NCBI GenBank assembly: GCA_024516035.1 | Contig: CM044961.1 | Location: 7,225,928 to 7,289,927 of the forward strand | Source: Bactericera cockerelli | Lineage: Eukaryota > Arthropoda > Insecta > Hemiptera > Triozidae | Direction: 5' to 3' | DNA: 64,000 nt | Part shown: positions 1,137-48,910 of the stretch, piece after piece | Layout: the number at the start of each line of letters is the position of its first letter | Numbering within the stretch: the first letter of the stretch is position 1 | Translations under genes and position numbers: made by a program | The notes under the pieces: generated by a model | What the model was told of the DNA's origin: nothing | Seen by the model: the letters and a program-made list of their open reading frames with translations, nothing else | The model's database searches: none

Positions 1137-2476
1137 GTAAGCTTTTTTTTATTTATTATTTTTTAACAATTTTAGCACATGCATATTTTACTTAAAAAAA
1201 TATCATCATGGTGGGCGTCTTCGTGAACGATGGTAGCCAGACAGTGGAGGAATGACTCAGCACTTCTACCACTGTCTTTACAAGGAGGTTAATAATTGAC
1301 AAGGGCCCCCAGAACCAAGCCAATGCTGGTCTACTCCCTGTTTATAGTCCCCCTTACTCCCTGTTTATAGTCCCCCAGCCAGACTAAAAAAGTATAATAA
1401 CGGTTTTTAAAAAAAATTGGTTTAAGGTCGCTTTCAACTGCATGGTCATATCACGACATGTTATGGAGGCATTCGCAGGAAATTCTCAAACCTGTTACCC
1501 ACTTTTGATCTATAACACTGGCATTATTTATTTGTATTTTATAAATCAACATTCTCTTTCATTCCATTTTATAATAGGTAATCTATTTTTTTCTTCTTCT
1601 TTTTCTTACAGTTTATTACAAATCCTTTATTTATACTGCCTGTGTTGGACTAAAGAGTACCTTTTTTTGCTAACAAGGTTTCATTTTTAATGTTATTATT
1701 ATCTATTATCACTTTTTTTCAAGTAAAATTTTTCATCAAAAGATGAAAGAGTTTGTTATTTGTATTCTATAAATCAACATCCTCTCTTATTCCATCTTCT
1801 CCTTTTTTTTTTCTTTTTTTTCTCCCACAGTCAGGTGGGCGAGAACCTATCAGGTGAAGCTAGATTCCTACCCAGCATTAAGGGCAAGCACCTGCGTACC
1901 TACTTAACCCTGGATGAGCTACGCAGTAATAAACACACCCACGTACTCATTACCATACCTCCCCATTATGAATATGTAAGTACCTATATCCTGCATAGCT
2001 GGTAGTCATGTATATGTAAGTACCTATATCCTGCATAGCTGGTAGTCATGTATATGTAAGTACCTATATCCTGCACAGCTGGTAGTCATGTGGTTAACGC
2101 GCTAGTCTGGTAATCCAAGTAGCGTAGCGATCCGTTGTTTCGAATCCACCGAGTGCAAGGATTTTTCCTCGTGAATTTGAGTTTGTGACTACATAATAAT
2201 AAGACTCTGAGGGTTAGGAGGAAATGCTTTGAGCATTAACCTCTTCTGGTGGTTACCTTCCACTAAAGAGTTTTAATTAATATAAGAACAAAAAATATCA
2301 AGCAAAATGCCAGTTTTGCAACGCCAAGAAAAACAAAACGAGCGTGTATATTTACACTAAACCTAGTTCGTATGTATTTTCTTTTGTAATTTTGACTTTC
2401 TTAAATAATAGTTTATTACAAAATTCTTAATAGAACAAATAAAAAAAACGAATTATTTTAAAGATAGAAATACTTG

Positions 2477-2507
<31 letters not shown>

Positions 2508-5500
2508 AAAAGGCGTGTACCTTCAAATAGTCAGATAACAACAATATTTCTGTAACATTAACCCTGGTTTGTTCTCGCTCCTCAGTTTCGCATCTCATAC
2601 GACATCTACCGACCGCAGGACCGAATCTCCTACGTCTCTCTGCTCTCCCTGCCCCTCCTCTCCTCGTTTCTCCCCTCCCCTCTCTCATCTCCCCCTCTCA
2701 TTCTCTCTCTCTCCCACGACCGGCTGTCTCTCTCGCACACGCTCATTCTGGACCAGATGCAGTATGTGTGGCTGGCCGTGCGCATGCGCATGATACCTCA
2801 TTGTGACCCCGCCCATTCGTACCATCAGAGTGTTGCTACGGTGCGTGAAAGGGTTAATTTTGTACAATAATTTCATTATCATTTTTTACTTCTGAAATGT
2901 TTTTAAAAAATGTATATAGTTTTTTTTGATAGTAATTTTAGTATGTATACTAAATTTTGTTACTTCTTGGAGAAAAAAATATCTTTCAACAAATACTTAA
3001 ATGATGATTGATGGAACCCTATCATCAATTTTAGATCTGGGGCTAAATTTAGCCTTCAAATCCTAGACTATGGGTAAGAAAATCTGTATAGAATGTAAAA
3101 TGATTTGAAGATATTTTTTCTATAGCCAAAGGAACTATCTAAATTTCGCCATGATCCATAATGAATCAAAATTTAGCTTAGAACCGCTTCATCTATTTTC
3201 ATGCCTTAACCCAACAACTCACACTTCAGAAGAACTAGTAAATTTTTCTGTATACATATATTAAATTTCATGGACATTCTGAATACATATGTATATACAT
3301 ATATCAATTTTCATGGACATTCTGAATACATAAATATGTACATTGTACATACAGGGTGGACACAAAGTCTCACCCCACTCGGCGCGGTGGCCAGTAACTG
3401 TACAACCAGCCCAACACTAACACTTTCAGATAAGGTTGAGTATGTTTGAAATGTGTAGTTGAGAGGATTTCTCATGAAAAAAAAAATCATCTTTCTACCA
3501 ATTCTTTTTCTAAAGATACAGCATAGAATAGATACTGGGAGTGGGGTCAGACTTAGTGATCACCCTGTATATACAATTATACATAATAATGTATCAAATT
3601 TTATGGACATTCCTCAAATTAACCCTTTGCAGGTCCGCGTGCCCTGGAGTAACCAGAACACCCACCACGTCATCTGGCGCAACGTGTCCTCTCACACATT
3701 CCCCATCAGTCTGTATGACCCCCGGCCCGGCCCCTCCAGGGACCAAGTCTCGGTCACCTTTGAGCTGGATCCCAGCTGTCGCTATCTAGTGACGTGAGTA
3801 TAGTTATCATATTTGTGTTAATCACTTTCGTGATATCACAACTAATCAAACTCGCTTTACTAAATCTACTCTGACCTCCAGGTTACACTTCCGCCGCTTT
3901 ATCGATCAAGCTTCTGTAATGTGGGTGCGAAAGTTTTCAACATTTTACCAACTGATATAAGAAATATAAATGATTTAAAAATACTTCGATTGGAATTGAA
4001 AAAATGGTTTAAAAATGAAGATAATAAAAATAAATTAATTAAACTCTGGGATTGAATAAAAATAATTACATTAAATGAATAACAATATCAATAAAGATCT
4101 ATTAATTCACAAAAACAATCAATCTTAAAAGTAAAAGAATATAACTAAGAATTTAAATAAAATAGAAATTTAAATTAAAAACATGTAAATTTGCAGATTT
4201 TGGTATATACAAATATGACTTTTTTGTACGGTAGGGTCCAACACATGCTAACGCACTCAGGATCCTACTGAAACTTTGTGAAGAGAAGAAGATGATTATA
4301 TGTAAATAAATACATATATTTCAAGTATTTGTTGAAAAAAAAAAAAAAAGCTACTGAGGTCGGTAGTGACGTGAGTATAGTTATCATATTTGTGTTAATC
4401 ACTTGACGTGAGTATAGCTATCATATTTGTGTTAATCACTTGACGTGAGTATAGCTATCATATTTGTGTTAATCACTTGACGTGAGTATAGTTATCATAT
4501 TTGTGTTAATCACTTGACATGAGTAATAGTTATCATATTTGTGTTAATCACTTGACATGAGTAATAGTTATCATATTTGTGTTAATCACTTGACATGAGT
4601 AATAGTTATCATATTTGTGTTAATCACTTGACATGAGTAATAGTTATCATATTTGTGTTAATCACTTGACGTGAGTATAGCTATCATATTTGTGTTAATC
4701 ACTTGACATGAGTAATAGTTATCATATTTGTGTTAATCACTTGACATGAGTAATAGTTATCATATTTGTGTTAATCACTTGACGTGAGTATAGTTATCAT
4801 ATTTGTGTTAATCACTTGACGTGAGTATAGTTATCATATTTGTGTTAATCACTTGACGTGAGTATAGTTATCATATTTGTGTTAATCACTTGACGTGAGT
4901 ATAGTTATCATATTTGTGTTAATCACTTGACGTGAGTAATAGTTATAATATTTGTGTTAATCACTTGACGTGAGTATAGTTATCATATTTGTGTTAATCA
5001 CTTGACGTGAGTATAGTTATCATATTTGTGTTAATCACTTGACGTGAGTATAGTTATCATATTTGTGTTCATCACTTGACGTGAGTATAGTTATGATATT
5101 TGTGTTGATCACTTGACGTGAGTATAGTTATCATATTTGTGTTAATCACTTGACGTGAGTATAGTTATCATATTTGTGTTAATCACTTGACGTGAGTATA
5201 GTTATCATATTTGTGTTAATCACTTGACGTGAGTATAGTTATCATATTTTTTTATTTTTTATATAAAGATGAGTTTTTCACAGCCTTTTTTATTTCGTAG
5301 CCATAAAACAGGAGCTACTGTAGACGCTTGTGGTCTGTGTTGTAGCCTGCCTATGCCGTAGTATGCCTCCCCTCTGATGGGCGAGAAGTGACACAATACT
5401 TCCCAATTAGGTGCTGGGTCAACACGAGCGCACCGGAAGGTATCCCTTACAAACAATTGTAACCAATTTAAGAATACAAATTTGTGTCGGCACGGGGAAT

Positions 5501-8500
5501 TGAACCCAGGACCTTCCGCATGGCAAGCGAGTGCTTAATCACTGAGCTAATCGCGCGCTCTGTGTTAATCACTTTCGTGATATCACAACTATTCAAACTC
5601 GCTTTACTAAATCTACGCTCAAACCGGGACTTGAACCACCGACCTCCAGGTTACAAGTCCGCCGCCTTATCGATCAAGCTACTGAGGTTGGTAGTGACGT
5701 GAGTATAGCTTTCATGTAAATACGACCCAATGAAGGTGAACGAGAACTAATGTCCTACATAAAGGGCGGGGTTATTGTCTGCGGCAATCTCTTCCACCCA
5801 ACCCTTCTGATGATACTGCAATCGCAGCACAAGTCGTCACATTTGATGAAGTTGACCATGTACTTACCACAACCTTAGAAACCCCAGAAACGTCCCGGTA
5901 GCTCAGTGGTAAAGGCGGCACTCTGTGAATCCACAGGTTCCAGAGGTCGTGAGTTCGAAACCCAGCCGGGACATGACAAGTTATCCTCACATTTGGGATT
6001 TTTACCACAACCACATAAGGGTTGGGTGGAAGAGATTGCCACAGGCAATAACCCCACCCTTTAGGTAGGACATTTCTCTCTTTTTTTCCTTCTTGTATAT
6101 TTGTTTAATCTTTTTGTTTTTCTTTATATTTCATTGTGTTCTACTGTATATATTTTTTGTTCTACCTAATAAAGCTTAAAAAAAATAAATAAATAAAATA
6201 ATATGTCTTGGGCTTACTGCTGGAATAATGGGAATTTAATAGTCCTTATTGGGCAGTATGAATAAGGCGATATTATTATTGTCTTATTTATTATCTTCAC
6301 AGGGCGCATCTCTCTCTACTGGACTCACTCCGCTCCTTCATATTCTCCTGCTCGCCCATGCTTCTCTCACATGGGCGCCCTTCTCCTCGCCCATCAGCTG
6401 TCTATTATCTACTAACTTGTCTCATCTTCACAGGGCGCATCTCTCTCTACTGGACTCACTCCGCTCCTTCATATTCTCCTGCTCGCCCATGCTTCTCTCT
6501 CACATGGGCGCCCTTCTGTTCCTCCTCGCCCATCAGCTGTCTATTATCTACTAACTTGTCTCATCTTCACAGGGCGCATCTCTCTCTACTGGACTCACTC
6601 CGTTCCTTCATATTCTCCTACTCGCCCATGCTTCTCTCACATGGGCGCCCCTCTCCTCGCCCATCAGCTGTCTATTATCTACTAACTTGTCTCATCTTCA
6701 CAGGGCGCATCTCTCTCTACTGGACTCACTCCGCTCCTTCATATTCTCCTACTCGCCCATGCTTCTCTCACATGGGCGCCCCTCTCCTCGCCCATCAGCT
6801 GTCTATTATCTACTAACTTGTCTCATCTTCACAGGGCGCATCTCTCTCTACTGGACTCACTCCGCTCCTTCATATTCTCCTGCTCGCCCATGCTTCTCTC
6901 TCACATGGGCGCCCTTCTTCTCGCCCATCAGCTGTCTATTATCTACTAACTTGTCTCATCTTCACAGGGCGCATCTCTCTCTACTGGACTCACTCCGCTC
7001 CTTCATATTCTCCTGCTCGCCCATGCTTCTCTCTCACATGGGCGCCCTTCTCGCCCATCAGCTGTCTATTATCTACTAACTTGTCTCATCTTCACAGGGT
7101 GCATCTCTCTCTACTGGACTCACTCCGCTCCTTCATATTCTCCTGCTCGCCCATGCTTCTCTCTCATATGGGCGCCCTTCTTCTCGCCCATCAGCTGTCT
7201 ATTATCTACTAACTTGTCTCATCTTCACAGGACGCATCTCTCTCTACTGGACTCACTCCGCTCCTTCATATTCTCCTGCTCGCCCATGCTTCTCTCTCAC
7301 ATGGGCGCCCTTCTGTTCCTACTCGCCCATCAGCTGTCTATTATCTACTAACTTGTCTCATCTTCACAGGGCGCATCTCTCTCTACTGGACTCACTCCGC
7401 TCCTTCATATTCTCCTACTCGCCCATGCTTCTCTCTCACATGGGCGCCCTTCTGTTCCTCCTCGCCCATCAGCTGTCTATTATCTACTAACTTGTCTCAT
7501 CTTCACAGGGCGCATCTCTCTCTACTGGACTCACTCCGCTCCTTCATATTCTCCTGCTCGCCCATGCTTCTCTCTCACATGGGCGCCCTTCTGTTCCTAC
7601 TCGCCCATCAGCTGTCTATTATCTACTAACTTGTCTCATCTTCACAGGGCGCATCTCTCTCTACTGGACTCACTCCGCTCCTTCATATTCTCCTACTCGC
7701 CCATGCTTCTCTCTCACATGGGCGCCCTTCTCCTCTTCCTCCTCGCCCATCAGCTGGGTGAGCTGGGGGCGGGCGGCTCGTGTTCTGTGTTCCCGGTGGC
7801 TATGGCTCAGAGCGGAGGGCGCCCCAAGTTCGCTTTCAGGATTCTGACTGGGGTGTCCTGCAGTGTTCTGGCGGCTCCTTGGTAAGTTTTTTTTCCTCAC
7901 GAGGTATGAGTGGAACTCCTTGGTTTTTTTTTTTTTTTTTTTTTTTTTCTTAACTTAAGTTTTATTTTGTGGGCCAATTATTGTAAAATGGATTAGATCC
8001 CGTAGAAATTCTAAATAAATAAAAGTATTATTTCTCTCTACTGAGGTCCCTTAGTTTCATCATAAAACAATAACAACTATTATTATTTTATTTTATATTA
8101 GAACAAGATAGGGAAATTGTGAAATGGGTAGTTCCCGTTAATTAATTTAAAATTTAAAAAAAAAAATTAAAAAAAACTAGGTACCATCTCCAGCGGGGCA
8201 GACATTTTGCTCTGTACTTGGATGTTCGGGGTCCACTCATACCTTGTGAGGAAAAATGAGTAGCTGCTTTGATGTGAAGCAGCGACCAGTGGCGGAATTA
8301 CAGGCAAAAAAATATTCTGCACTACCCACTAAAATTGTGACATAGTAACACAAAGAAAAAACATTATCATTATTACTAACTCTGTACATCAAATGATGTT
8401 CTTTCCTCTTAACTCTTAAAACTAATGAAAGCCCTCAACTCGGATTAAAGTACGCTGTGATTGGTTGAAACTCCGACTTGAGTGCGTGTCTGGCTTATCT

Positions 8501-11500
8501 TAACTATAATTTTGTTTCATAATTTGGCCTTTATGCTCAAACTAAAAAAAAAAACTAACTAAAAAGTTATCATATTTGTTTTAATCACTTTTGTGATATC
8601 ACAACTACTCAAACTTGCTTTACTTAATCTACACTGAAACCGGGACTTGAACCACCGACCTCCAGGTTACAAGTCCGCCGCCTTATCGATCAAGCTACTG
8701 AGTTCTAAAAAAACTAACTAATTAATGATATAAACTGAAACTGAATCATTCATTCCAGGGTGCCCGGGCTCCTGACTCCCGACACCAGCCGCCTGTACGC
8801 CCAAGCTCTGGACGCCGCTATGGTGCCGGTGGCTCTGTACGCCGCGGCTCTCTCCTGTGTGCTCCTCACCGGGTGTATGGGACTTGTGGCCCTTGTGCTG
8901 TGGGGCAAGACGATGAACTCTCTAGCCGTGGGGTGAGTTACCTTGCTTACTAGCTGTGGGGTGTATGGGACTTGGGGTGTATGTGGGGCAAGACAATGAA
9001 CTCTCTACCCGTGGGGTGAGTTACTAGATGTGGGGTGTATGGGACTTGGGGTGTATGTGGGGCAAGACAATGAACTCTCTAGCCGTGGGGTGAGTTATTA
9101 TTATTATTATTTACCACTTAATTGGTCAACTACATACATTCAACAAAATAGGACATGATAAAAAAAAAAAACAAACAAAATAGAATATGTAGTGAACCAA
9201 GGGGCGAGGTTAAAGCCTGTGGCTTTCTCTTCCACCGAACCCCATAAGTTATCTTACTTACTAGCTGTGGGGTGAGTTACCTTACTTACTAGCTGTGGGG
9301 TGTATGGGACTAGTGTCCCTTGTGATATGGGGCAAGACAATGAACTCTCTAGCCGTGGGGTGAGTTACCTTACTTACTAGCTGTGGGGCAAGACAATGAA
9401 CTCTCTAGCCGTGGGGTGAGTTACCTTACTTACTAGCTGTGGGGTGTATGGGACTCGTGGCCCTTGTGATGTGGGGCAAGACAATGAACTCTCTAGCCGT
9501 GGGTTGAGTTACCTTGCTTACTAGCCGTGGGGTGAGTTACCTTGCTTACTAGCTGTGGGGTGAGTTACCTTACTTACTAGCTGTGGGGTGTATGGGACTT
9601 GTGTCCCTTGTGATGTGGGGCAAGACAATGAACTCCCTAGCCGTGGGGTGAGTTACCTTACTTACTAGCCGTGGGGTGAGTTACCTTACTTACTAGCTGT
9701 GGGGTGTATGGGACTCGTGGCCCTTGTGATGTGGGGCAAGACAATGAACTCTCTAGCCGTGGGTTGAGTTACCTTGCTTACTAGCCGTGGGGTGAGTTAC
9801 CTTGCTTACTAGCTGTGGGGTGAGTTACCTTACTTACTAGCTGTGGGGTGTATGGGACTTGTGTCCCTTGTGATGTGGGGCAAGACAATGAACTCCCTAG
9901 CCGTGGGGTGAGTTACCTTGCTTACTAGCCGTGGGGTGAGTTACCTTGCTTACTAGCTGTGGGGTGTATGGGCCTTGGGGTGTATGTGGGGCGAGACAAT
10001 GAACTCTCTAGCCGTGGGGTGAGTTATTATTATTATTATTTAACACTTTATTGGTCAACTACATACATTAAAAAAATTGGACATGATAAAAAAAAAAAAA
10101 AAAAAAAAACAAAATAGAATATGTAGTGAACCAAGGGGCGAGGTTAAAGCCTGTGGCTTTCTCTTCCATCGAACCCCATAAGTTACCTTACTTACTAGCT
10201 GTGGGGTGAGTTACCTTACTTACTAGCTGTGGGGTGTATGGGACTAGTGTCCCTTGTGATGTGGGGCAAGACAATGAACTCTCTAGCCGGGGGGTGAGTT
10301 ACTTTACTTACTAGCTGTGGGGCAAGACTATGAACTCTCTAGCCGTGGGGTGAGTTACCTTACTTACTAGCTGTGGGGTGTATGGGACTCGTGGCCCTTG
10401 TGATGTGGGGCAAGACAATGAACTCTCTAGCCGTGGGGTGAGTTACCTTGCTTACTAGCCGTGGGGTGAGTTACCTTGCTTACTAGCTGTGGGGTGAGTT
10501 ACCTTACTTACTAGCCGTGGGGTGAGTTACCTTACTTACTAGCTGTGGGGTGTGTTACCTTGCTTACTAGCCGTGGGGTGAGTTACCTTGCTTACTAGCC
10601 GTGGGGTGAGTTACCTTGCTTACTAGCCGTGGGGTGAGTTACCTTACTTACTAGCCGTGGGGTGAGTTACCTTACTTACTAGCTGTGGGGTGAGTTACCT
10701 TACTTACTAGCTGTGGGGTGTATGGGACTAGTGTCCCTTGTGATGTGGGGCAAGACAATGAACTCTCTAGCCGTGGGGTGAGTTACCTTACTTACTAGCT
10801 GTGGGGCAAGACTATGAACTCTCTAGCCGTGGGGTGAGTTACCTTACTTACTAGCTGTGGGGTGTATGGGACTCGTGGCCCTTGTGATGTGGGGCAAGAC
10901 AATGAACTCTCTAGCCGTGGGGTGAGTTACCTTGCTTACTAGCCGTGGGGTGAGTTACCTTGCTTACTAGCTGTGGGGTGATTACCTTACTTACTAGCCG
11001 TGGGTTGAGTTACCTTACTTACTAGCTGTGGGGTGAGTTACCTTGCTTACTAGCCGTGGGGTGAGTTACCTTGCTTACTAGCTGTGGGGTGAGTTACCTT
11101 ACTTACTAGCCGTGGGGTGAGTTACCTTACTTACTAGCTGTGGGGTGAGTTACCTTGCTTATTAGCTGTGGGGTGAGTTACCTTACTTACTAGCTGTGGG
11201 GTGAGTTACCTTGCTTACTAGCTGTGGGGTGAGTTACCTTACTTACTAGCTGTGGGGTGAGTTACCTTACTTACTAGCCGTGGGGTGAGTTACCTTACTT
11301 ACTAGCTGTGGGGTGTATGGGACTTGTGTCCCTTGTGATGTGGGGCAAGACAATGAACTCCCTAGCCGTGGGGTGAGTTACCTTACTTACTAGCCGTGGG
11401 GTGAGTTACCTTACTTACTAGCCGTGGGGTGAGTTACCTTACTTACTAGCTGTGGGGTGTATGGGACTCGTGTCCCTTGTGATGTGGGGCTAGACAATGA

Positions 11501-14500
11501 ACTCCCTAGCCGTGGGGTGAGTTACCTTGCTTACTAGCCGTGGGGTGAGTTACCTTACTTACTAGCTGTGGGGTGAGTTACCTTACTTACTAGCTGTGGG
11601 GTGAGTTACCTTGCTTACTAGCCGTGGGGTGAGTTACCTTGCTTACTAGCTGTGGGGTGTATGGGACTTGGGGTGTATGTGGGGCGAGACAATGAACTCT
11701 CTAGCCGTGGGGTGAGTTATTATTATTATTTAACACTTTATTGGTCAACTACATACATTAAAAAAATTGGACATGATAAAAAAAAAAAAAAAACAAAATA
11801 GAATATGTAGTGAACCAAGGGGCGAGGTTAAAGCCTGTGGCTTTCTCTTCCATCGAACCCCATAAGTTACCTTACTTACTAGCTGTGGGGTGAGTTACCT
11901 TACTTACTAGCTGTGGGGTGTATGGGACTAGTGTCCCTTGTGATGTGGGGCAAGACAATGAACTCTCTAGCCGTGGGGTGAGTTACCTTGCTTACTAGCC
12001 GTGGGGTGAGTTACCTTACTTACTAGCCGTGGGGTGAGTTACCTTACTTACTAGCTGTGGGGTGTATGGGACTAGTGTCCCTTGTGATGTGGGCAAGACA
12101 ATGAACTCTCTAGCCGTGGGGTGAGTTACCTTGCTTACTAGCCGTGGGGTGAGTTACCTTGCTTACTAGCCGTGGGGTGAGTTACCTTACTTACTAGCCG
12201 TGGGGTGAGTTACCTTACTTACTAGCTGTGGGGTGTATGGGACTCGTGTCCCTTGTGATGTGGGGCAAGACTCCTCTCTAGCCGTGGGGTGAGTTACCTT
12301 ACTGACATCACGATTGTGACTTACACAAATAATATGGAAGACCGACCTGAGAAGCTTGATCGGACTTGTAACCTGGAGGTCGGTTGTTCGAGTCTTAAGC
12401 TCGTTAAAAAAATTAGTAGATTGAGTTTAAGTTTTTTTTTTTTTTTTTTTTTTTTTTTGAAATCGCGTTTCCGATAGTTTCGGGGTCACAAAAATATGCT
12501 GTTTCTTTGGTTCTTCACTGGCTCTCCGATAAGTTAAAAGTGTACAGAAACGGTCAATTGTCAGATAGCTTGACAACGTGACAACGATTCGCCAACAATT
12601 TTATTTTGAAAAATGCAGGTAACTCGTTTTTTGAGCGAGGCCATCAATTATGTCATCGAGAGAGTGATGAACACATTTTTTAATTCACTGTATCCTAACT
12701 GCGAGATATTGTAAATAAATTAATAATAATTGACAAAAATATGATAAAATAAAAAGTATTACATATTTCTACACTCATTATTCATTATTATTACATTTAT
12801 GGTTGAGTTGTTATTTGAACAAGGATGGTGATTGTTTAGTATCCTCTATGTAAAATCATTTTTTTTTTTTAATGTCTATTTTTTACAGTTTCCTCGCCAA
12901 GATTCTGAAGGGCAGTACGTTGTATTCTGAGTGGAGCATGAAAATCCTGGAGAAGTTGCCTGGCCTAGTGGCAGCTCTGATGCTATCCATAGCCCTGAAT
13001 ACATGCGGGGGTCTTGCCTTTGCTCTGGGCCTCTGTCTCTACTTCCTCAAGGTAATACTACTAGTAATAATAACAATACTTCTAGTAAAAATAACAATAA
13101 TTCTAGTAATAATAACAATAATACTAGTAATAATAACAATAATTCTAGTAATAATAAGATACTAGGTAATACTACTAGTAATAATAACAATAATTCTAGT
13201 AATAATAAGATACTAGGGAAGTAGCCTGGCCTAGTGCCACCTAGTGGCAGGCTCTCATGCTATCCATAGCCCTGAATACATGCGGGGATTGCGGGGTATT
13301 AGTATTAATACAGGGTGTCTACTGGTCAGGGAAAACCTGGAAAACCTGGAATTGTCAGGGAATTTTTCGAGACCGAAAAAGTCAGGGAAAAGTCAGGGAA
13401 TTTTTTGAAAAAACACCATAAGTCAGGGAATTTTGTGAAAAAACACCAAAAGTCAGGGAATTTTTTTCAAGATCCAATTTTGTCATGAAAATGAAAAATA
13501 AAAAAAATTTGCCTGCGGCGCCACTGTAATCCAGCAGTGTGATAATGCTTCTTTGGTAAGAAACACAAAACACTCTTAATCACTTTTATATAAAATTAAC
13601 AAAATTTTAGCAGGTCTTATATAATATTCATATAACGTCTCCTTAAGAAAGTAGACTGGAGAAACTGGAAAAATGGCCTGGAAAACCTGGAAAAGTCAGG
13701 GAATTTTACTTTGACCATTTAGTAGACACCCTGTAATAATACCAGAAAAATACTCATATAATACTAGAAAAATACTCGTATTAATAATACTAGAAAAATA
13801 CTGGTATTAATAATACTAGAAAATTTGCCAGGTCTAGTGGCAGCTTATTTTTCAGGTGTTTTTTTAAATTTTCAGGAGGAAGGGGTTTCTAGTTTGAATG
13901 TACTATACAAGTTTTGCGGATTGCATACTTTTTCAGGCGTTTCTTCAAATTTTGGAGGTTTGACCGATGAGAATAATATTTATCTCGTGACGCTGGCTTT
14001 TCCCGGCCCCACTCAGGCTGGGTGAGGTCAATGTGAGTAGCAGGTTTGTGAGTTTCCTGCGAATGGAGGGTAAAACCCCCGTCGTGATATGACCATGGCA
14101 GTTGAAAGCGACGTTAAACCCCACTTAAAAAAAAGAGAATAATATTCTCGCCTAATTAATTATTAGGACGAAGTCCAATTATTCGGGCAGTGAGCGCAAG
14201 GCGTATTATTATGTGGCCAAAATTGGGAATGGGAAGATAACTTGTCACGTCCCTGCTGGGTTTTGAACCCGCGACCTCTGGATTTCCAGACACCTTGACC
14301 ACTGAGGTATTGGGACTGGCCTTTTCCGGTAGCTCAGTAGTCAATGCGTCTGTCTGATAATCCAAAGGTCCTGGGTTATAAACCCAGCCGGAACTTGACA
14401 AGCTATCTTCTCATTTAGGATTTTAGTCACATGATAAAAAAAAAAACTTAGGTTTACTGATGGATTAATAGGTCTCATTAGTCTTAATCAGGCAATACAA

Positions 14501-16870: not shown

Positions 16871-17582
16871 GTAAGTACCAAGCGCTTACCAGTGCAGACT
16901 TGTGGTAATTCCGGCGTTCTTTTTTTTGCCTTTAATTACATGATCAAATGATCATATCACAAAGGGGGTTTAACTCTCCATTTGGTTACTAAAGGTGACA
17001 ATAATTGGTAGTCAAGTGGTTTTTTGTGTTTTTATAATGAGAGTGGTGTGTTCAATATTGATTGCACCAACACAACCGAACGCTGAGTCTAGGTAGACAT
17101 AAGGGTAGTGCTGACATCACGCAGAATCTAACCATGTTATTAACTATACAGGTTCTTATTGAGCAATTATTTTCAAAGGGTTTTGATTGGAGTGGTCAAA
17201 ATTCAGGAGTTCAGAAATGATCTATATTTGTTTACCTTATTTCATTTACATTTTATCACAACTACCTGCTACCAAAGAAAATTATTTGTTTATGCCCCAT
17301 ATAACGATATCCGAGGTCAATGTTTATAAACATGCTTCTTTGAAACAGTAAAGGATCATGATGATAACAACATGACCAGTGACCACCCTCTATTGTTTTT
17401 TGTACCTTAATTCGCACCCTTGTACGAGTTGTTAGAGAAAGAGAAAAATACATTCTCAATGTAAATTTGTAAACCTAGAGACACCGCACATTTCCCCTCT
17501 TTGGTATCCTTACTCGGTGCCAAAGGGGAGGTTCATAATTATGACATGCTATATCTCGTCTACAATACTATACACCATATTA

Positions 17583-18402
17583 TACAGGGTGTCCAATTAT
17601 AATCGAGACATTCAAATATCTCGAAAAGTACTGACGATAGAAAAAAATCAGTTCAAAATCATTTTCATAGCTCTAAAGGGGGCATTTAATGTTGACCCCT
17701 AGAAGTCTCTCGGATGACCCCTTCAAGGTTATTTCAAGGTCACCTTTGGAATTTTAAATTGCATCCCCTATTTTTTATGCCATTTTTGAAATCTACACAA
17801 AATTTTAAGTTCTAAGAAATTCTTATTTGTAATATTTTTCACACCCAGTTTCACACACTTAAGGAAGTGTAAGATTTTTTCCCATCTTAGACCATGAGTG
17901 CGGCAACTGCGGCATATCAAATCAGTCTTATTTTAGGTGCTGAACGCGATAATAACATTGGTTTTCCATATTACATAATAATAAAAAATATCTCTAGTAT
18001 GGGAGACCCAAAAATTTAAGTAAAATGAAAAACCAATATTACTATCGTATTCAGCACAAATTGGACTGATTTGATATGCCGCAGTGCCGCACTCATGGTC
18101 TAAGATGGAAAAAATCTCACACTCCCTAAAAGGTGTGAAAAAAAATTACAAGTAAGAATTTGTTTGAACCTAAAAAATTATGTAGACTTTAAAAATTTCA
18201 TAAAAAATATGGAGTGTCATTTAAAATTCTAAAGGTGACCTTGAAATGACCTTGAAGAGGTCATCCGAGAAAGTTTTAGAGGTCACCATCAAATGTCCTA
18301 CTTAGAGCTATGAAAGTTATCTTGAACAGATTTTTCTCATCGCCAGTAGTTCTCGAGATATTTGAATGTCTCGTTTATAATGGGACATTGAGACACCCTG
18401 TA
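17583..18402. mobile_element. Large palindromic fold-back element, ACAGGGTGTC ends
   Basis: The left arm starts TACAGGGTGTCCAATTATAA and the right arm ends TTATAATGGGACATTGAGACACCCTGTA. The inverted copies run almost to the centre (about 17950-18030), giving arms near 400 bp. No transposase is visible. Confidence 0.85.
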
Positions 18403-18558
18403 CATCAATGGAACACCTGGATGCATGACTCGGTAATTTTTGGAAGGCCCAAATTGAATATATATGTATTGATAACAAGTTATGTACCTAGTTTTTAACT
18501 TCTCATGTTTACATTTTCAGACAAGTTGTCTAAATATACATCAATCTCTCTTTAACAG

Positions 18559-18729
18559 TTGGAAGTAGGAGGAAGAGAATCTGTATTCTTTGACCGTTTC
18601 TTTCATACGATATTCTTCAATCTTCATTCCCGTATCACCTCGATTGTGCGTATTTATGAGGGTGACTTCACTTTTCCCAAGTTCCGGGGTATGAAGTCAG
18701 CATCACTGAAGACATACATGAAATCGTGA
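18559..18729 (+). CDS. Unidentified terminal coding exon
   Basis: An acceptor CTCTCTTTAACAG ends at 18558, followed by 56 sense codons and TGA. The protein reads LEVGGRESVFFDRFF, contains HSRITSIVRIYEGDF, and ends LKTYMKS. Its composition looks coding, but I do not recognise the family. It cannot follow PGAP1 exon i directly because the phase is wrong. It may be the last exon of another gene, or of PGAP1 through an exon I missed. Confidence 0.4.
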   Translation: MEVGGRESVFFDRFFHTIFFNLHSRITSIVRIYEGDFTFPKFRGMKSASLKTYMKS

Positions 18730-18900
18730 TGCAGGAAATGATGAGTTTTTGTACAGGCTGATCAAGCAGGCGCAGATCAGCCTAATTATAAACTTAATGT
18801 GACATCAAATCATTTAAAAAAGACCGATTATAAACTTAATGAGACATCCTCTAAGCATTTTATACCACCTAACCCTCAGAGTCTTATTATTATTATGTGC

Positions 18901-19165: not shown

Positions 19166-19169
19166 GCTG

Positions 19170-37200: not shown

Positions 37201-40200
37201 TTTCCAAAATGTTGAATAAGATTTTCCTCACACGGCTTTTAGTTTTCCCTACTTGCACATTCACATTTTTTGACAGTCTGAACAAAAAGAAGTTAAAAAC
37301 ACACTTTTCTTTTCCTTTCAGATTCCTGACTATCGTAATGCAGTCATAGTAGCCAAGAACCCTGGTGCTGCTAAAAAAGCCACCTCCTATGCTGAGAGAT
37401 TACGTCTCGGCATTGCTGTGATACATGGAGAACAGAAAGAGAGTGAGGCTGATGAGGTACGTGAGGACAACTGAGTACATGCTGTGAGGACAATTTAGGA
37501 AATATTGAGAGTGAAAAATTAGGAATATTAATGCTTATGAGCGAGAGACAATGTCTTAATGCTGTGATGAACAAAAATCAGAGAGAAGTTACAATACACA
37601 TTAAAAATCTCAGTTAAAAAACGTCGAGTGAGTTTAGGACTTGGTGGATGACCTCAGGTTCAAACCCTAGTGCTCTATTGACGCAACGCAGGCTGGATAT
37701 GTTCTGAGACACTCCTGTTTATACTGATTAAAATAGAGAGGTTAGTTGATGGCATGGCTATTACCTGCTGATGAGAGCAGATAAGCTCGAAACAGCTGTC
37801 CAGGTATGTTCTGATATTTATGTACATCTATTTATTTATTTATTTTTTATTTATTTAGAAACTCTTTATTAGCAGAACATATATACAGACAATGGTAAAA
37901 ATTAAATATAAAATTGATAGTATTAATAATATAAACAAGAAAAAAATAAATAAAATATATACATATGTCCTAACTAAAGGGCGGGGTTATTGCCTATAAC
38001 CTAGTACAACTTCTCACTTTTCTGTTTATACTGATACTGAATTTTTGTCATTTCAGGTGGATGGGCGAGCCTCCCCCCCGAACCCCCCCGTTCTCCCCCC
38101 CTCGCGTACCATGGAGATGGATGTGGGCGTGCCCCAGCACCCGGCCAAGGAGAAGCCGCCCATCAGTGTCGTGGGTGATGTGGGGGGCCGGGTGGCTATC
38201 ATGGTGGTGAGTTGGATCTTTATTCTTATCCTTTATGTATCCTTTATTCTTATTCTTTATTTATCCCATAAAATACGAGTATATAAGACCTGTTTGACTG
38301 CTGGAGTAAAGGGACTTTTCAGTCTTACCTCGGCAGTATAAACAAGGTATATTCTATTCTATTCTATTTATTCATCTTTTTTTTTTAATTCTAGTCATAA
38401 GTGTTATTATTGTTGTTTTTGTTTTTTTTTTTTTGTATTTTTTTTTTGATTTTGTTGTAAAAATGGGCTTAACTCGTAAACTTGTAAAAAAAAAAAAAAA
38501 AAAAAAAAAATCATAGGGTGGCTATCATGGTGGTGAGTTGTACCTTTATTCATCATCATCATAATAATAATAATAATAATATCGTCTTATTTATACTGCC
38601 CGATTAGGACTATTAAAGTCCCATTCTTCTAGCAGTAAGTCTAAGACATATTATTATGTGGTAAAAATCCCAAATGGGAGGATAAATTGTCATGTCCCGG
38701 CTGGGTTTCGAACCCACGACCTCTGGAATCTCTGGATTCACAGAGTACCGCCTTTACCACTGAGCTACTGGGACAGACGTGGCGTTATCGTGAACGATCA
38801 TAGCCAGACAGTGGAGGACTGGAGGAATGACTCATCACTTCTACCACTGTCTTTACAAGGAGGCTAATACATAATTGACAAGGGCCCCCAGAACCAAGCC
38901 AATGCTGGTCTACTCCCTGTTTATAGTCTCCCAGCCAGACTGCTGGTCTACTTGCTGTTTATAGTCCCCCAGCCAGACTGCTGGTCTACTCGCTGTTACA
39001 GTCCCCCAGCCAGACTGCTGGTCTACTCCCTGTTTATAGTCCCCCAGCCAGATTATCTTTATTACTTCCAATAATTTCTAATACTAGAAATCTAAAGTAT
39101 TGTGTACTTTTTTTCTTTTCTTTTTTGATAACACGTTGATATTCGGTCAAAATTTCCTTTAGTTTCTCCATGTTTCAGTCACCCTTTGAATGATGACTCC
39201 TCAATCTTTTGAGGGCACGAATAGCTCAGTGGTCAAGCACTCGCTTGCCATGTAGAAAGTCCCGGGTGCGAACCCCTGCGCCGACAAAAAATTGTATTCA
39301 AAATTTGGTTACAGTTGTTTGTAAGGGGTTGGTTACATAATTTGGTTACAATTGCGCACCTTCCGGTGAGCTCATAGTGACCCAGCGCCTAAATGGAAAG
39401 TACTGTGTCACTCCTCGCCCATCAGAGGGGAGGCACACTACGGTATGGGCAAGCTACAGCATAGACCACAAGCGTCTACAGTAGCTCCTGTTTCATGGCT
39501 ACGAAATAAAAAAAGGCTGTGAAACACCACTCATCTTATAATAAAAATAAAAAAATGTCATCCTAAGAATCATGAAACATGGAGGACAGGCACTGTCACC
39601 CTTATCAGGGTGACAAAGATACAAACGTGTTAAACAAAGTTATCGCCAAACAAACTTGAAGGGTGGTAACAATGCCTAGGACATTTTCCACCATGTTCAA
39701 GATAATACCTTTTTTGTAATTTACACACCTAGATGACACTTTGTTTTGACTGTGACAGTAAAAGGTCCATTGCAAATATTGAGCACAGCAAAGCTTTCAT
39801 TTCGCAATCTTTATTTTGTAGCCATGAAACAACAGTAGATACTTGTGTTCGGTGTTGTAGCTTGCTCATCCCATAGTATGCCTACCCTCTGTAGCATATA
39901 CAGGGTGGGGCAAAAGTCTGGAAACCCCTGAATAACTTTCGAATGGCTTCTTCGGTAAAATTAAAATTTTGTACGGTAAATCGGGCTAATAAGACCTTCT
40001 TTTAGAGTCGGGTCGATTTTTGTTTCCGGCCCCCATGTCGGGGCCAGGGGGGCCAACTTCATTTTTTTAAATACGAACCCCCACCTTGCAATACATTTTT
40101 GAAAAGGTCTTTAAATAACAAATCCATTGGTGCAAATTTTATTTATTTAATAATAACTGTTTGCAAATGGCGTCCAACTTTGTGTATGCAGTAAAGTCTG

Positions 40201-43200: not shown

Positions 43201-46200
43201 AACTACTGAAAAACTCAAAAATTTCCGAAACATACAACCTTCATACAGAAATTCAACCGGAATGCATCCTAAATGAAATAGTAAAACTAATTCCAACTAA
43301 CTTAACGAAAGACGACAGAGTAATAATATCCGGAGGTACAAATGACTTGTACTTAACCAAAGCCGAAGATGCAATCACAAATCTAAGAATATTAGTGAAA
43401 CAACCATGTCCAGTAATAATACTATCGATTCCACCTCAAAATTGTCTCCTTACTAACAAAGACATCACAAAACTCAATACCAAAATACGACATGGATTAG
43501 AATCAATTTCAAATTGTCATTTTATAAACGTGCAAAAATTCATTAAAATGAAAGATATAAATGAAAATGGCAAGACTCTTGGAGATACAGCAAAAAAATG
43601 GCTTGGAAGTAAAATAACAAAAACATTAGATTACATTCATAAACAAAAAAGTAGACCCCAAGCATTACAAAATCCAAGAATTGCTCTTAATAAAAATAGC
43701 AATCAAAATATGCATGTAAAATGGCAACAACAAACTAAAAAACAGATACATGATAAAACACGAAATCAGCAACAGCAGGAACATCACCAATGGCAGCAGC
43801 AACAGGAGCACCAAGAACGAAAACAACAGCAGCACCAACAACAACAACAGCAGCAGTGGCATCAGCAGCACCAGCAGCAACTACAACAGCAGCGGCAGTG
43901 GCATCAGCAGCAACAGCAGCACCACCACCAGCAGCACCAGCAGCAGCAGCAGCAGCAACACCAACAGCACCAACAACAAAAACAACAGCAGCACCAACAA
44001 CAAAAACAACAGCAGCACCAACAACAACAGCAGCAGTGGCATCAGCAGCAACAGCAGCAGCAACAGCAGCAGCACCAGCACCAACAGCAGCAGTGGCATC
44101 AGCAGCAGCAGCAGCACCAGCACCAATACCAGCAGCAGCAGCAACACCACCACCGCCAACAACAACAGTACCCACAAGAAAGACCCTTGAATCATGTTCA
44201 TCACACCTACTCAAATGATCTTCAATATCTAAGAAGCAATATCACTCCCACTCAACAACAAGCACCAAATGCACAAGCTCCAGAAATTTTACTCTACTCT
44301 GATCCCCCATCTCCTTGCGATAAATCTCACACAACCACTATTCAACAAAACCACATGCCGAGATCATCTCATAGTCATGTTGTACCAGCGCAGCCACACT
44401 CGTATCACCATCAATACCAACCTGACCCATATTTTTTTCATCATGCCGCAACCCCAGTCACATGGATATAACGCATCCAGGGCAACACATTTTTCCCAAA
44501 ATTCAAACCATACACCAGAAGAACAGAACTCCTAAAGGATTTACATTCATTCCAACAGTAAAAAATACGAAAAGAAAACAACACAATGGACAGTTAGGTG
44601 TCAATAGGAAGAACCTAGTAACTATAAATATTATAGGTAGTCAAAATACTTCCAAACAAAACAATGAATCTAAAAACATTACCATTTTTTATCAAAATGT
44701 AAGGGGTTTGCGAACAAAGACAAAAACCGTTTTTCTAAATACGTTAATTCAGGATTATGACATAATATGTCTAAGTGAAACTTGGTTATCCGATGACATA
44801 AATGATGGAGAACTTTTCAATATTAAATATCAAGTAGTGAGACAAGACCGTGATCCTAGAATCACCGGTAAAATAGAGGCGGTGGAATTTTAATAGCCCT
44901 AAAGTCAAACTTTCTGTTTGAAAAATATGAAGATTTTTGTACAATGAGTACAGAATTTGAAAATATTTGGATCAAAATTTCACAACCTTTTAAAATGAAC
45001 TTATGTGTCATTTATTTTCCTCCACCAATGAAATTAGAACACTTGAAAAGTTTTTCTAAATTAATTGATAGTCATAAAGTTGACCCTAATATGAAAACTC
45101 TCATAGTAGGTTACTTCAACATTAATGAAATTAACTGTAGTCAAACCGATCTCCTGAAAAGTAAAAATAAATGTTGTATAGAACTAAATAAATTATTGAA
45201 CGTAAATAATCTCACAAGTATTAATAACATTCAGAATAAATTAGGTAAAACACTAGATCTTGTACTCTGTGAAAAAACAATAATAAATAAATTACAAATA
45301 GATCAAGAAATAGGTATAGTAGATCCTGATCCATATCACCCACCTATCAAAATCACATTACATAAACCAAATTTGAGTCTAAAAAAGAACTTGATTCCCA
45401 AGCGCAATTACAATATAAACAAAGCAAACTGGATAAATATACAAGAAGATTACCTTAAAATAAATTGGTACAAATTATATGAAACAAATAACACTGAAGA
45501 AATATTCCAAATTTTCTATGAGCAATTATACACTATCCTTAACAAACATATACCACAACAAAAAACACATAAAATACAATATCCACAATGGTGGTCTAAA
45601 TACACAATAAAACTATACAAAAAACAGAAGAGAGATAAACGAAAACTAGTATTTACAAAAAAACACGAAGACAGAAAAGCACAAACGTTAAAATCATTCC
45701 GAACAAGCGTACAAAAAGAATACGAAAAATACATACAAAACACAGTCAAAGACTTAAAGAAGGACCCCAAAAAGTTTTGGAATTATATTAAAAGCAAGAG
45801 AAAGTTTTACACTCCAAGGTCTTTTATAATAGATGACGCACTCACATCGGATGAAACAGCAATAGCTGATGGATTTGCGAAGTATTTTGGTTTTGTTTAT
45901 CAAAGAATAAATACTCATTACGCACAAACAGGACACACAGTCTCAACATCAAATGTACATATCCATATATCAAATGTTACTAATAAAGAAATCCAACAAT
46001 CAATAAAAAATTTACCAACAAATAAAGGACCTGGACCAGACCATATACACCCCAAAATAATAAAAAATATGCAAAAAATCATAACACCCGAACTAAAATT
46101 ATTTATTCAATACATCAATAAAAAATTGTTCCTTCCCCAAAATACTGAAAACATCTATTATAACACCTGTGACCAAAACAGGTAATTTGCAAATGATGCA

Positions 46201-48520
46201 GAACTATAGACCTATAACAACATTGAATTCAATCGCAAAAGTATTTGAAAATGTAATTTACAACAAAATCCATAAAGACATTATGCAAAACATAACAACA
46301 CAACAACACGGCTTCCTTAAAAAAACGATCAACAGAAAGTAACCTACTGCTAATGGATATGAAAATAAAAGAGGCATTCAATAAAAAAGAACAATTAGAT
46401 ACAGTATATACAGATATATCCAAGTTTTTCGACCAAGTTGACTTTGATATTTTACTAAAAAACATGAACAACTTTGGTTTCACCGATCACAGTCAAACAT
46501 TTTTTAAATCGTATCTTACCGACAGAATAATACAAATTCGTTACGGAGATGCTCTCTCACAAACTATAACACCAACATCAGGCTTTCCGCAGGGTAGTAA
46601 AATATCTAGTCTGTTTGCTATTCTCATAATGAATGGAATAGTGTCAAAACTAAAACATTCTGAAGCGCTAATATTTGCAGATGACCTGAAAATCTTTATG
46701 GCCATTAAAAACAAAGAAGACTGCAATAAATTACAAGAAGATATAAATAGTGCATATAATTGGGTTACAGAAAACGGATTACAATTTAACATTGCGAAAT
46801 GCGAACAATTACAATATTGTAGAGGTAAAACCAACTATCCACATCAATACTATCTCGCTGAGAAACCATTAAAACAAATAACAGAGAAAAAAGACTTGGG
46901 CGTTATATTTCAATCGAACGGAGAATTTCAAACACATATACAAACTACAATCAGTAACTGCTTCAAACGAATAGGATTAATAAAGAGAAATGCACCACAA
47001 ATCCAGGACCTAGACACTCTTATTATGTTATATAACTCATTAGTTCGCTCAAAATTAGAATATTGTGCGATAGTATGGTGCCCCCGTACCAAAATTTGGA
47101 TAAAGGAAATTGAAAAAGTACAAAAAAGACTTATACAATACTTATTTTTCTTAGAATTTAAATTTTATCCTACTTACCCAAATGGAATAGCCTACAAACA
47201 ACTGATTGAACAACTTAACATACAGACTTTAGAAGAAAGACGAGAAGGACAGATGGTAATTTACCTACATAAATTATTCAATAATAAAATTGACTGTCCT
47301 GAAATTTTATCAAACATAAAAATAAACATTCCTAAACCAACACTAAGAAACAATAATTACAAAATATTTCATATTACATGTAATACTAAATACACGTCAT
47401 CACTGAACTACATACTAACAACATTTAACAATAAATATGAAAAACTAGACTTAGCCATGGATTATTCCCAACTATTAAAAGCAATAGGTAGGGAATATTA
47501 TATAGGTTACATTTAGCACACTACATTATCAAGTTATTGTTCATAAGATAATATATATATATTTCCTTAAAGTAGGTACCAAGTGTTTATCTTTCATTTT
47601 TAAATTACTATTATAATATCATGTAACCCTAGGTCCTTTTTCCCCCTTCTAATAATTTGTTTAAAATATTTCGATGTTTTTCTCTTTAAAATATAATATT
47701 GTAAATTAACCCTCTAATAGGGTTATTCACCCATTATAAATAAATAAATAAATCTATGGCCAACTTTCTTCTTTTTGCCCTCAGTTTTACTTTTAAATTG
47801 ATATATGTACTACATAAGAAATTAAGGATGTTAAAGTTAGGAGATAAAGTGATTCCTATTGAACATACCTGAACAATGGTTAAACTTCTTCTTTTATAGT
47901 ATTGTTTTTAGATTCTTCTTTTTTAATTTTGTTTATGTTAGTTTTACATTAAAAGCAGCCATGTTTGGAAGGTTTTAGGAAATCCCTGTCTTCGAAATTT
48001 GGACCAATTTTAAAAACAAATAAATTGAGCGTTTCACAGCCATCTTTATTTCGTAGCCATGAAACAACAGCTAATAGTGTAGACACTTGTGGTCTATGCT
48101 GTAGCTTGCCCATTTCGTAGTAAGCCTGTCTTCTAGTGGGCGAGAAGTGACAGAGTACTCCCGATTTAGGCGTTAGGTCAACACGAGCGCACCGGAAGTT
48201 ATCCCTTACAAACCACTGTAATCAAAATTTGAATACAATTTTTTGTCTGCTCTAGAGTTCAAACCCGGGACCTTCCGCATGGCAAGCAAGTATCTTACCA
48301 CTGAGCGAATCGTGTGTTCGTTGTTGTACTTGAATAATTTAGAATGACTAATTTATTTCAGGTCGTGGTCACAAACACAATACCACACGAGATTCAGAAA
48401 CTCCAATGTTCGAAAATCAAAACCGTTGACATCAGCATTCTTCTATCCGAAGCCATCCGTCGTATGCATAACAAAGAGAGTATGTCGTATCTATTCCGGA
48501 ATGTAACACTTGAGGACTAA
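34142..48520 (+). CDS. PRPSAP: PRPP synthetase-associated protein
   Basis: PRPSAP proteins are catalytically weak or inactive relatives of ribose-phosphate pyrophosphokinase that bind and restrain the active enzyme in purine and pyrimidine supply. Eight exons join in one frame: 34142-34221, 35219-35338, 35840-35949, 36268-36446, 37322-37456, 38057-38206, 40932-41078 and 48362-48520, giving about 359 residues. It has [32 protein letters not shown] and [10 protein letters not shown]. An insertion [11 protein letters not shown] is diagnostic of PRPSAP over PRPS. The active enzyme's PRPP loop (DDMIDT-type) reads [10 protein letters not shown] here. The start ATG is the first in the exon. Intron 7 carries a 6-kb LINE. 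The stop-codon region is tandemly repeated. Confidence 0.93.
34625..34690 (+). repeat. SINE family A fragment
   Basis: ACTGACCTCAGTAGCTTGAT head only, decayed after about 60 bp. Confidence 0.55.
34956..35179. mobile_element. piggyBac-like TTAA MITE
   Basis: It is bounded by TTAACACGTATGAGACGG and CCGTCTCATACGTGTTAA. CCCACCGGTGGG occurs twice, at 35101-35112 and 35146-35157, in an inverted pair that forms a hairpin. Confidence 0.9.
35219..35338 (+). CDS. PRPSAP: PRPSAP exon 2
   Basis: It reads (S)[19 protein letters not shown] and ends [10 protein letters not shown] plus AA at GTAAGT. Confidence 0.92.
35840..35949 (+). CDS. PRPSAP: PRPSAP exon 3
   Basis: It reads (K)[18 protein letters not shown] and ends [10 protein letters not shown] plus T. 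The [10 protein letters not shown] block is conserved in PRPS and PRPSAP. Confidence 0.93.
36268..36446 (+). CDS. PRPSAP: PRPSAP exon 4
   Basis: It reads (C)[17 protein letters not shown] and [19 protein letters not shown], ending LLQYIQDS at GTAAGT. Confidence 0.95.
36479..36905 (-). repeat. SINE family A and SINE family B, inverted
   Basis: A family A copy lies at 36479-36624 (ends AAGCTACTGAGGTCGG). A family B copy lies at about 36772-36905 with GGTTTTGAACCTACTACCTC. Confidence 0.7.
36998..37117. mobile_element. TTAA MITE, weak ends
   Basis: TTAACACTTACAT at the left and ATGTGTTAA at the right form imperfect terminal repeats. The internal GGTCCCATTGATGGGAC is a palindrome. Confidence 0.6.
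37322..37456 (+). CDS. PRPSAP: PRPSAP exon 5
   Basis: It reads [20 protein letters not shown], then [20 protein letters not shown] and E at GTACGT. It is in phase 0 on both sides. Confidence 0.95.
38057..38206 (+). CDS. PRPSAP: PRPSAP exon 6 (family-specific insertion)
   Basis: It reads [20 protein letters not shown] and ends [13 protein letters not shown] at GTGAGT. The Pro-rich stretch is the insertion separating PRPSAP from PRPS. Confidence 0.93.
38207..40931 (+). other. PRPSAP intron 6, repeat-rich
   Basis: It contains a second copy of the exon 6 end and donor at about 38516-38552, an inverted family B SINE (38573-38776) and the dispersed repeat with four imperfect TGGTCTACTCCCTGTTTATA units (38779-39055). 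It also holds a family C SINE (39205-39545), an inverted family C tail (39800-39896) and the fold-back element 39900-40766. Confidence 0.7.
39900..40766. mobile_element. Large nested palindromic element, CAGGGTGGGG ends
   Basis: It runs from ACAGGGTGGGGCAAAAGTCT to its inverse AGACTTTTGCCCCACCCTGT. Each arm holds two copies of AAGTCTGGAAACCCCTGA, so four related quarter-units are arranged as a palindrome of about 870 bp. No ORF is seen. Confidence 0.88.
40932..41078 (+). CDS. PRPSAP: PRPSAP exon 7
   Basis: It reads [20 protein letters not shown], then [20 protein letters not shown], and ends EESPIDE at GTAAGT. Confidence 0.95.
41823..44471 (+). pseudogene. LINE ORF1: coiled coil, esterase-like domain, polyGln tail
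   Basis: One frame of 882 codons carries a single internal TAA at 43152. The first 443 residues are Lys/Glu/Asn/Gln-rich with a probable coiled coil at about 60-190 and an acidic run (about 42660-42705). After the stop, [10 protein letters not shown] and [10 protein letters not shown] match blocks I and III of SGNH/GDSL esterases. The expected catalytic Ser is Phe (GDF for GDS) and the final His block is not visible. About 43766-44170 encodes nearly pure Gln/His. The frame ends TPVTWI, overlapping the ORF2 start by 10 bases. Confidence 0.75.
43766..44175 (+). repeat. CAG/CAA polyglutamine tract
   Basis: About 135 codons are mostly CAG, CAA and CAC/CAT. Interrupting Trp-His (TGGCAT/TGGCAG) punctuates it every 8-20 codons, suggesting growth from a QQQWHQQ-type module. 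All six frames stay open over it, which yields artefactual ORFs. Confidence 0.9.
44462..47516 (+). pseudogene. LINE ORF2: endonuclease and reverse transcriptase, frameshifted
   Basis: The start ATG at 44462 lies inside the end of ORF1. The endonuclease begins [15 protein letters not shown] and has ICLSETWL. The frame breaks near 44865, resumes as [11 protein letters not shown], breaks near 46145 and again near 46320 in an A run. RT blocks include [44 protein letters not shown] and the catalytic FADDLKIF. The RT motifs are intact but the frame is not. Confidence 0.85.
48025..48325 (-). repeat. SINE family C, inverted
   Basis: Tail TTTCACAGCCATCTTTATTT and head GGACCTTCCGCATGGCAAGC. It lies just before the last PRPSAP exon. 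Confidence 0.75.
48362..48520 (+). CDS. PRPSAP: PRPSAP terminal exon
   Basis: It reads [20 protein letters not shown], then [20 protein letters not shown], and ends RNVTLED before TAA. Confidence 0.96.
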
Positions 48521-48910
48521 AGGGTTAAGACCTAGATATTCCATCCGTTTATTGCATTATAAGGAAAGAATCTGTTCCGGAATCTGACACTTGAAGACTA
48601 AAGAGTTAAGACATACATACAATACATATTCCATCCATCATAAGGAAAGAATCTGTTCCAGAATCTAACACTTGGAAGACTAAAGGGTTAAGACATACAT
48701 ACATATTCCATCCATTATAAGGAAAGTATCTGTTCCGGAATCTAACACTTGGAAGACTAAAGGGTTAAGACATACATACATATTCCATCCATTATAAGGA
48801 AAGTATCTGTTCCGGAATCTAACACTTGGAAGACTAAAGGGTTAAGACATACATACATATTCCATCCATTATAAGGAAAGAATCTGTTCCGGAATGTAAC
48901 GATTGAAATG
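48496..48910 (+). repeat. Tandem array founded on the PRPSAP stop codon
   Basis: A unit of about 77-80 bp starts CGGAATGTAACACTTG and contains GACTAAAGGGTTAAGAC and ATTCCATCCATTATAAGG. It is repeated about six times at roughly 48496, 48575, 48657, 48735, 48812 and 48889. The first copy contains the last coding codons and the stop. Confidence 0.92.

Follow-up and report, generated by a model that had tools for sequence, protein, structure and literature searches.

Why should tandem repeats lie across the ends of coding sequence, and do they lie there more often than chance would allow? The question is raised by a window of 64,000 nucleotides from Bactericera cockerelli (C7:7225928-7289927), studied together with a search of the genome (565 Mb in 1032 contigs). 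The original prediction held that at least seven gene boundaries in this window had each founded a tandem array.

The best explanation, and on balance a probable one, is that tandem duplications of 25-170 bp arose across coding boundaries, that the terminal copy went on working, and that the duplications later grew as minisatellites. Counted at the level of founders, duplications across a 5' splice site, a 3' splice site or a stop codon are commoner than those elsewhere in introns, whether they form more readily or are better retained.

The window holds part of PGAP1 (868-16870; a match to Pfam PGAP1_3rd), a beta-mannosidase fragment called MANBA here (best match PDB 6ddt, without a Pfam hit) and PRPSAP (best match PDB 2ji4). 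A minus-strand gene near 53-54.5 kb is presumably ALG11; its trial frame is full of stops, and its two ends enter the window count below unverified. Between PGAP1 and the beta-mannosidase gene (16871-21471) there is a gap of 100 N bases (18901-19000). The 3' end of PGAP1 and the 5' part of the beta-mannosidase gene are not found around it, and a misjoin is possible. A sequence on the right edge of the window (61700-63800) appears by eye to be reverse-transcriptase-like and coding.

Repeats at the coding edges of the window

The edge repeats described in this section are all on the plus strand. An example is the array at donor 2 of PGAP1 (1968-2091), in which a 40-bp unit is repeated 3.1 times and contains the donor after 1975. 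This unit consists of the end of exon 1831-1975, the donor, 20-odd intron bases and 13 bases from the head of a tRNA-type SINE. Introner-like elements would be recognised as mobile units, resembling one another, that bring splice sites into many genes. Among the matches listed for the donor-2 unit (at least 43), only three copies of PGAP1 are found besides SINEs, which account for the other 38 rows, and inspection of other units suggests local sequence.

A larger array contains acceptor 5 of PGAP1 (6293-7735). Its unit of ~139 bp is made of the intron end, with TACTAAC and TTCACAG, and ~104 bp of exon 7648-7881. The unit is repeated 10.7 times, and the last unit is the real acceptor. At donor 6, a complex array (8899-12300) with units of 28 and 74-144 bp contains the donor after 8932. 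These units derive from the last ~60 bp of exon 8759-8932 together with the donor, and a SINE-like insert interrupts the array three times (from ~9098, 10026 and 11717). In PRPSAP, an array of 77-bp units repeated 5.2 times (48489-48900) straddles the stop codon at 48518-48520, beginning 32 bp ahead of the stop-codon end.

These four arrays (at 1975, 7647/7648, 8932 and the PRPSAP stop) contain their edge, as predicted. A fifth comes close to doing so: a TAA-rich array of 21- and 51-bp units near the PGAP1 donor after 13051 (13054-13290) starts 3 bases past that donor. The array proper occupies 13054-13217, and degenerate copies of exon 12941-13010 follow at 13207-13287.

At the other two boundaries no array lies at the edge itself. 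The donor that follows 3793 has no second copy beside it. The end of PGAP1 exon 4 and this donor are followed by an antisense SINE (3777-3827, target site TGACGTGAGTATAG), which is absent at the site in both of the further PGAP1 copies described below. The array attributed to the donor lies 573 bp beyond it (4367-5249), where a 37-bp unit is repeated 23.7 times; like the SINE, it is missing there from both further copies. This unit is a SINE target-site duplication (TSD) holding the donor, joined to 23 bp of SINE tail. In PRPSAP, the end of exon 38057-38206 and its donor make up a 36-bp sequence with a lone second copy (38190-38551). The second copy, at 38516-38551, is 94 % identical, lies 326 bp from the first and forms no array; an insert with a poly-A run separates the two.

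One further edge of PGAP1 is duplicated at a distance. The acceptor of exon 868-1136 and the first 128 bp of the exon (824-995) have a second copy upstream of the window, at C7:7222345-7222512, and one in the further PGAP1 copy P1, at C7:248313-248480.

Two other repeats of the window can be mentioned here. A 38-bp tandem repeat in a dispersed element (1324-1385, 30577-30690 and 38903-39052) has no tie to an exon edge and is present in both further PGAP1 copies too. A CAG-rich repeat (43767-44172) lies in an open frame of what by eye seems to be a non-LTR retroelement; the apparent element (~41.8-47.5 kb) sits within a PRPSAP intron.

Three copies of PGAP1

Two further copies of PGAP1 are found on the same contig, P1 (C7:248884-261940) and P2 (C7:7309594-7328824). 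P2 is ~83 kb from the window copy, W. The exons of W, P1 and P2 are 93-100 % alike, and the three may be either paralogues or uncollapsed haplotypes. In each of them 9 of 9 exons have AG and GT borders. These are the same 9 exons, and no new intron made by duplication is found in W, P1 or P2. Exon 3 of P1 (C7:251263-251518) is one base longer than in W, which may reflect an assembly error or a broken copy.

Most of the edge arrays are common to the three copies, with differing numbers of units, some being single. For instance, W, P1 and P2 have 3, 5 and 1 of the 40-bp units at donor 2, and 11, 5 and 3 units at acceptor 5 (one P2 unit is truncated). The same is seen in PGAP1 outside the window. 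Motif copies number 33, 1 and 9 for a 31-bp donor array upstream and 4, 8 and 2 for a 122-bp donor array, and a 148-bp acceptor repeat is present 2, 1 and 2 times. A 95-bp array at donor 9 occurs in P1 only. Head-to-tail units of ~10-170 bp, varying in number between copies of a locus, are what defines a minisatellite or VNTR, and the arrays have both features, the variation being seen in the three PGAP1 copies.

In the 122-bp array of W, the donor of the first unit (L018, C7:7221676-7221800) reads GAG/GTACATTACATTACAT by eye. There is an apparent insert between repeats of CTRTCCGAGGTA, which hold the donor, giving a second, TSD-like donor copy (also by eye).

The copies also say something about the order of events. 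Donor 2 of P2 has a single unit (C7:7310965-7311004) with the SINE already there; thus either the insertion came before the expansion, or the array has collapsed. The SINE-like insert in the donor-6 array is present in W and P1 and has no counterpart in the inspected P2 units, so the insert is probably later than the array. In P1 the final 111 bp of PGAP1 exon 7 occur once more, together with the donor of that exon. The array of TAA-rich units at 13054 may therefore derive from a duplication that straddled the edge.

When W, P1 and P2 are tallied together, 10 of the 24 ends of 12 PGAP1 exons have an edge repeat in at least one copy. Included in this figure are the copy of donor 4 made as a target-site duplication and the exon-1 acceptor, whose second copy is spaced from the first.

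Single-copy relatives allow the breakpoints of some founders to be read. Homology at the breakpoint is 1 bp for the 31-bp unit and 0 bp for both the 40-bp and the 95-bp unit. Little homology at the breakpoint is a mark of small tandem duplications induced by breaks, and the three founders examined, all with 0-1 bp, have the look of end joining or staggered-break fill-in. The donor-6 founder counts against this pattern, since by inspection it has GGGTG at both ends. Where the 31- and 95-bp units exist as single copies, no element is present at the unit.

Placement of founders in the window and at independent exons

Whether edges are over-represented depends on what is counted. In the window there are 15 arrays (period at least 20, score at least 100) and 56 edges. 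The count is post hoc, and some of its edges were placed by eye, namely the MANBA acceptor at 24519 and the ends of MANBA and of the last two genes. An edge is contained in 4 of the 15 arrays, and placement of founder units at random expects 0.73 (p 0.004). With a tolerance of 3 bases, 5 arrays are at an edge versus 0.80 expected by founder (p 0.0006). Placement of whole spans gives no excess for the window arrays, with 4 seen and 3.5 expected (p 0.48).

Some features of the window, such as the lack of hits in MANBA and the general richness of PGAP1 in arrays, count against the explanation. Exon ends straddled by a local direct duplication number 4 of 18 in PGAP1, 0 of 18 in MANBA and 2 of 16 in PRPSAP. 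Arrays make up 5770 of the 16003 bp of PGAP1, compared with 1717 of 47997 bp in the remaining window. Within PGAP1 the duplicated fraction on the intron side has no peak at the edge; it is flat at 20-22 % from 0 to 500 bp from the exon, in a profile that counts array copies as intron.

Independent evidence can be provided by exons outside the window. A sample of 60 exon loci from two protein families was chosen by protein-family match before the sequences were read. It comprises 40 kinase loci from 134 places (L044 spans two places) and 20 carrier loci from 147 places. The loci were hand-picked from the match lists, the choice falling on matches of partial coverage whose open frames are mostly short. 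L019-L038, which are full-length or nearly so with long frames, were left out, as were L079 and L006-L008. Near-duplicates are possible among the picks, and the acceptors of L050 and L051 are alike. A simple score was used to call splice sites; after inspection of the sequence, the donor of L089 was moved and the acceptor of L081 corrected. Three loci judged by eye to be edge-founded stand outside the counts: L082, at its stop, and L089 and L092, with repeats abutting the donor.

Of the 29 arrays in the first 50 loci, 9 straddle a called edge versus 1.5 expected by founder (0 of 20000 shuffles), one of the nine (L089) being a miscalled edge. Whole-span placement again shows no excess in these loci (9 seen, 11.2 expected, p 0.90). 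In all 60 loci, a splice edge is straddled by 8 of 31 arrays, and the founder expectation is 1.69 (p 0.00016). Barring exon-only placements raises the array expectation to 1.90-2.27 (p 0.0004-0.00125).

The excess is also found when duplications are grouped into families. Splice edges are straddled by 14 of 39 families in the 60 loci, versus 2.1 expected with the smallest founder (0 of 20000) and 6.1 with the largest (p 0.00055). When 7 stop codons are added and one acceptor (that of L081) is corrected, both steps being taken after the sequences were seen, 17 of 39 families are at an edge and 2.4-4.5 are expected (0 of 20000 shuffles). The edges hit, among 113, are 8 of 55 acceptors, 7 of 51 donors and 2 of 7 stops. 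Turning the low-complexity filter off gives 17 of 46 families (0 of 20000). Matching the GC content of the founder moves the expectation for the 17 of 39 from 4.5 to 5.0-5.5 (0 of 5000). By protein family, 15 of 31 duplication families at kinase loci and 2 of 8 at carrier loci are at an edge, and the carrier loci alone give weak support for the founder excess.

Raw coverage tells a different story. A local direct duplication covers 14 of 105 splice edges (13.3 %; 7 of 54 acceptors, 7 of 51 donors) and 768 of 5494 intron points (14.0 %), so there is no excess of coverage at edges. The predicted over-choice of exon edges thus stands for founders, in the window and in the 60 loci, and falls away for spans and coverage, and the inference depends on the founder count. 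This count is preferred because later copies cannot bring an edge into an array, which is an argument and not a measurement.

The founders have no uniform make-up. In the shortest edge copy of the sampled loci, the exon contributes 7-71 bp and the non-coding side 5-243 bp, and this wide range implies no fixed breakpoint. The eight edge arrays of the sample end 5-40 bp inside the exon. Stop codons, too, have founded arrays, in PRPSAP, in L061 and L080 of the sample and, by eye, in L082, which makes a purely splicing-based cause unlikely.

How edge arrays may arise, and what is known of similar systems

The process would start with a tandem duplication of ~25-170 bp that crosses the boundary between coding and non-coding sequence. 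The terminal copy would keep its junction with the real exon, splicing or termination could continue, and the other copies would come to lie in non-coding DNA. The predicted identity of the first or last unit with the functional boundary is forced by the topology of a tandem duplication across an edge. Duplications at edges may be tolerated because the terminal copy stays attached to its exon. Founders probably form by end joining or staggered-break fill-in and not by slippage between pre-existing repeats. Once founded, the arrays grow and shrink as other minisatellites do and gather insertions, as the three PGAP1 copies show.

The edge excess suggests that small duplications are biased in their places of origin or of survival; the founder counts come from this one genome and, out of the window, from two families. 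Breakage or nuclease access at exon edges might produce such a bias. Alternately, homologous repair between diverged alleles or paralogues might run out of homology at exon ends, or purely intronic arrays might be lost preferentially while those at edges are retained. Such duplications are present at some 13-15 % of the exon ends in the sample (14 of 105; 17 of 113), and a number of the duplications have single-copy relatives. A wider model, which we put forward only tentatively, is that a genome-wide mutational process at coding boundaries makes low-homology "edge minisatellites" at ~1 in 7 exon ends, seeding introns with copies of splice sites.

Could the pattern have been made by noticing overlaps in an array-rich genome with edge-dense genes? 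Arrays are abundant, with 31 in 60 short loci, and the span nulls, the coverage comparison and the flat distance profile all lack the excess, as would be expected of chance. Chance is nevertheless unlikely: founder nulls are exceeded in loci picked before their sequences were read, the sampled edge arrays all end a short way inside the exon, and the single-copy states of the paralogues reveal founders that straddle the edge. An assembly artefact, whether false repeat expansion or uncollapsed haplotypes, is extremely improbable as the source of the arrays. Many kinase matches are paired on one contig with equal or nearly equal scores, and P2 is near W, as an artefact might produce. However, units differ by substitutions and indels, and copy numbers vary among the three loci. 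If the PGAP1 copies are alleles, then the arrays are polymorphic, not false.

The original prediction offered two causes of its own. According to one, a SINE inserted near a splice site copies the edge as a TSD, and slippage at the junction makes an array. This describes the 37-bp array well, its unit being TSD and SINE tail and the SINE being missing there in both paralogues. It may also describe the 36-bp repeat at 38516, which flanks an insert; the 40-bp unit crosses the head of a SINE, and the second copy in L053 adjoins SINE-like sequence. As a general mechanism it is very unlikely, given that the other PGAP1 units have no recognised SINE part. The 31-, 95-, 122- and 139-bp units are by inspection local exon and intron sequence, as are the inspected kinase units, and the donor-6 insert probably came after its array. 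The other cause, selection that retains extra splice sites as decoys or splicing enhancers, is scarcely credible. Apart from the three arrays named next, every unit does keep its dinucleotide in the arrays measured, among them donor a (24 of 24), L075 (7 of 7), the L058 acceptor (7 of 7) and donor 9 (GT in 15 of 15; variant fraction 0 versus 0.059 elsewhere in the unit). Yet GT is lost from 6 of 23 intronic donor-4 units and intact in 17 (variant fraction 0.130 versus 0.011 elsewhere in the unit), lost from 6 of 58 donor-6 units and intact in 52 (0.052 versus 0.058), and AG is lost from 1 of 12 L077 acceptor units and intact in 11. In the arrays measured, the dinucleotide is not clearly better conserved than the rest of the unit, several of the splits being biased (the splice dinucleotide itself falls within those of acceptor 5, L071 and the L058 donor, and its T within that of donor 4). 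Stop-codon boundaries, moreover, behave alike.

Duplication across coding edges followed by minisatellite growth would make this genome useful in two ways. It would permit direct study of the birth of minisatellites, the growth of introns and the tolerance of duplicate splice sites. It would also serve as a warning for annotators that intronic copies of exon ends are common in it. No founder bias to coding edges was found in the literature searched, most subscription papers being outside reach.

Several known systems share features with these arrays. Human introns of modern origin have reportedly come from tandem arrays (Zhuo et al. 2007); by its title, that work ties tandem arrays to splice sites. 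In worms, an intronic minisatellite is linked to regions of alternative splicing, according to the accessible part of one report (PMC4039745). Small tandem duplications can be made by CST-guided Pol alpha-primase fill-in (Schimmel et al. 2021, PMC8355091). The available portion of that paper describes short tandem duplications that originate at breaks, which non-homologous end joining then closes, much as is proposed here. The process depends on Pol alpha-primase, CST, 53BP1 and end joining. The breaks there are induced in cultured cells, and that portion has nothing on exon edges, whereas the present arrays are known from sequence alone.

Tandem duplication over splice junctions has been proposed as a source of introns and alternative sites, with few proven recent cases, as far as the accessible text of a 2016 potato study goes (PMC4974935). 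In potato, a tandem duplication over an intron-exon border made one intron. As here, the duplication crosses the boundary together with splice signals. By the same partial account, the potato case is one duplication with one new intron, whereas here there are many duplications, tens of units and no new intron seen.

The closest comparison is with human segmentally duplicated genes, where variable minisatellites are found at exon-intron boundaries (De Grassi and Ciccarelli 2009, PMC2812944). The accessible part of that paper holds no test of a founder preference for coding edges. It describes human boundary minisatellites that change gene structure and can create introns, while exon positions are equal in the three PGAP1 copies. 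In both systems, to the extent that part describes the human one, the arrays lie across exon-intron edges and vary in copy number among recent paralogues.
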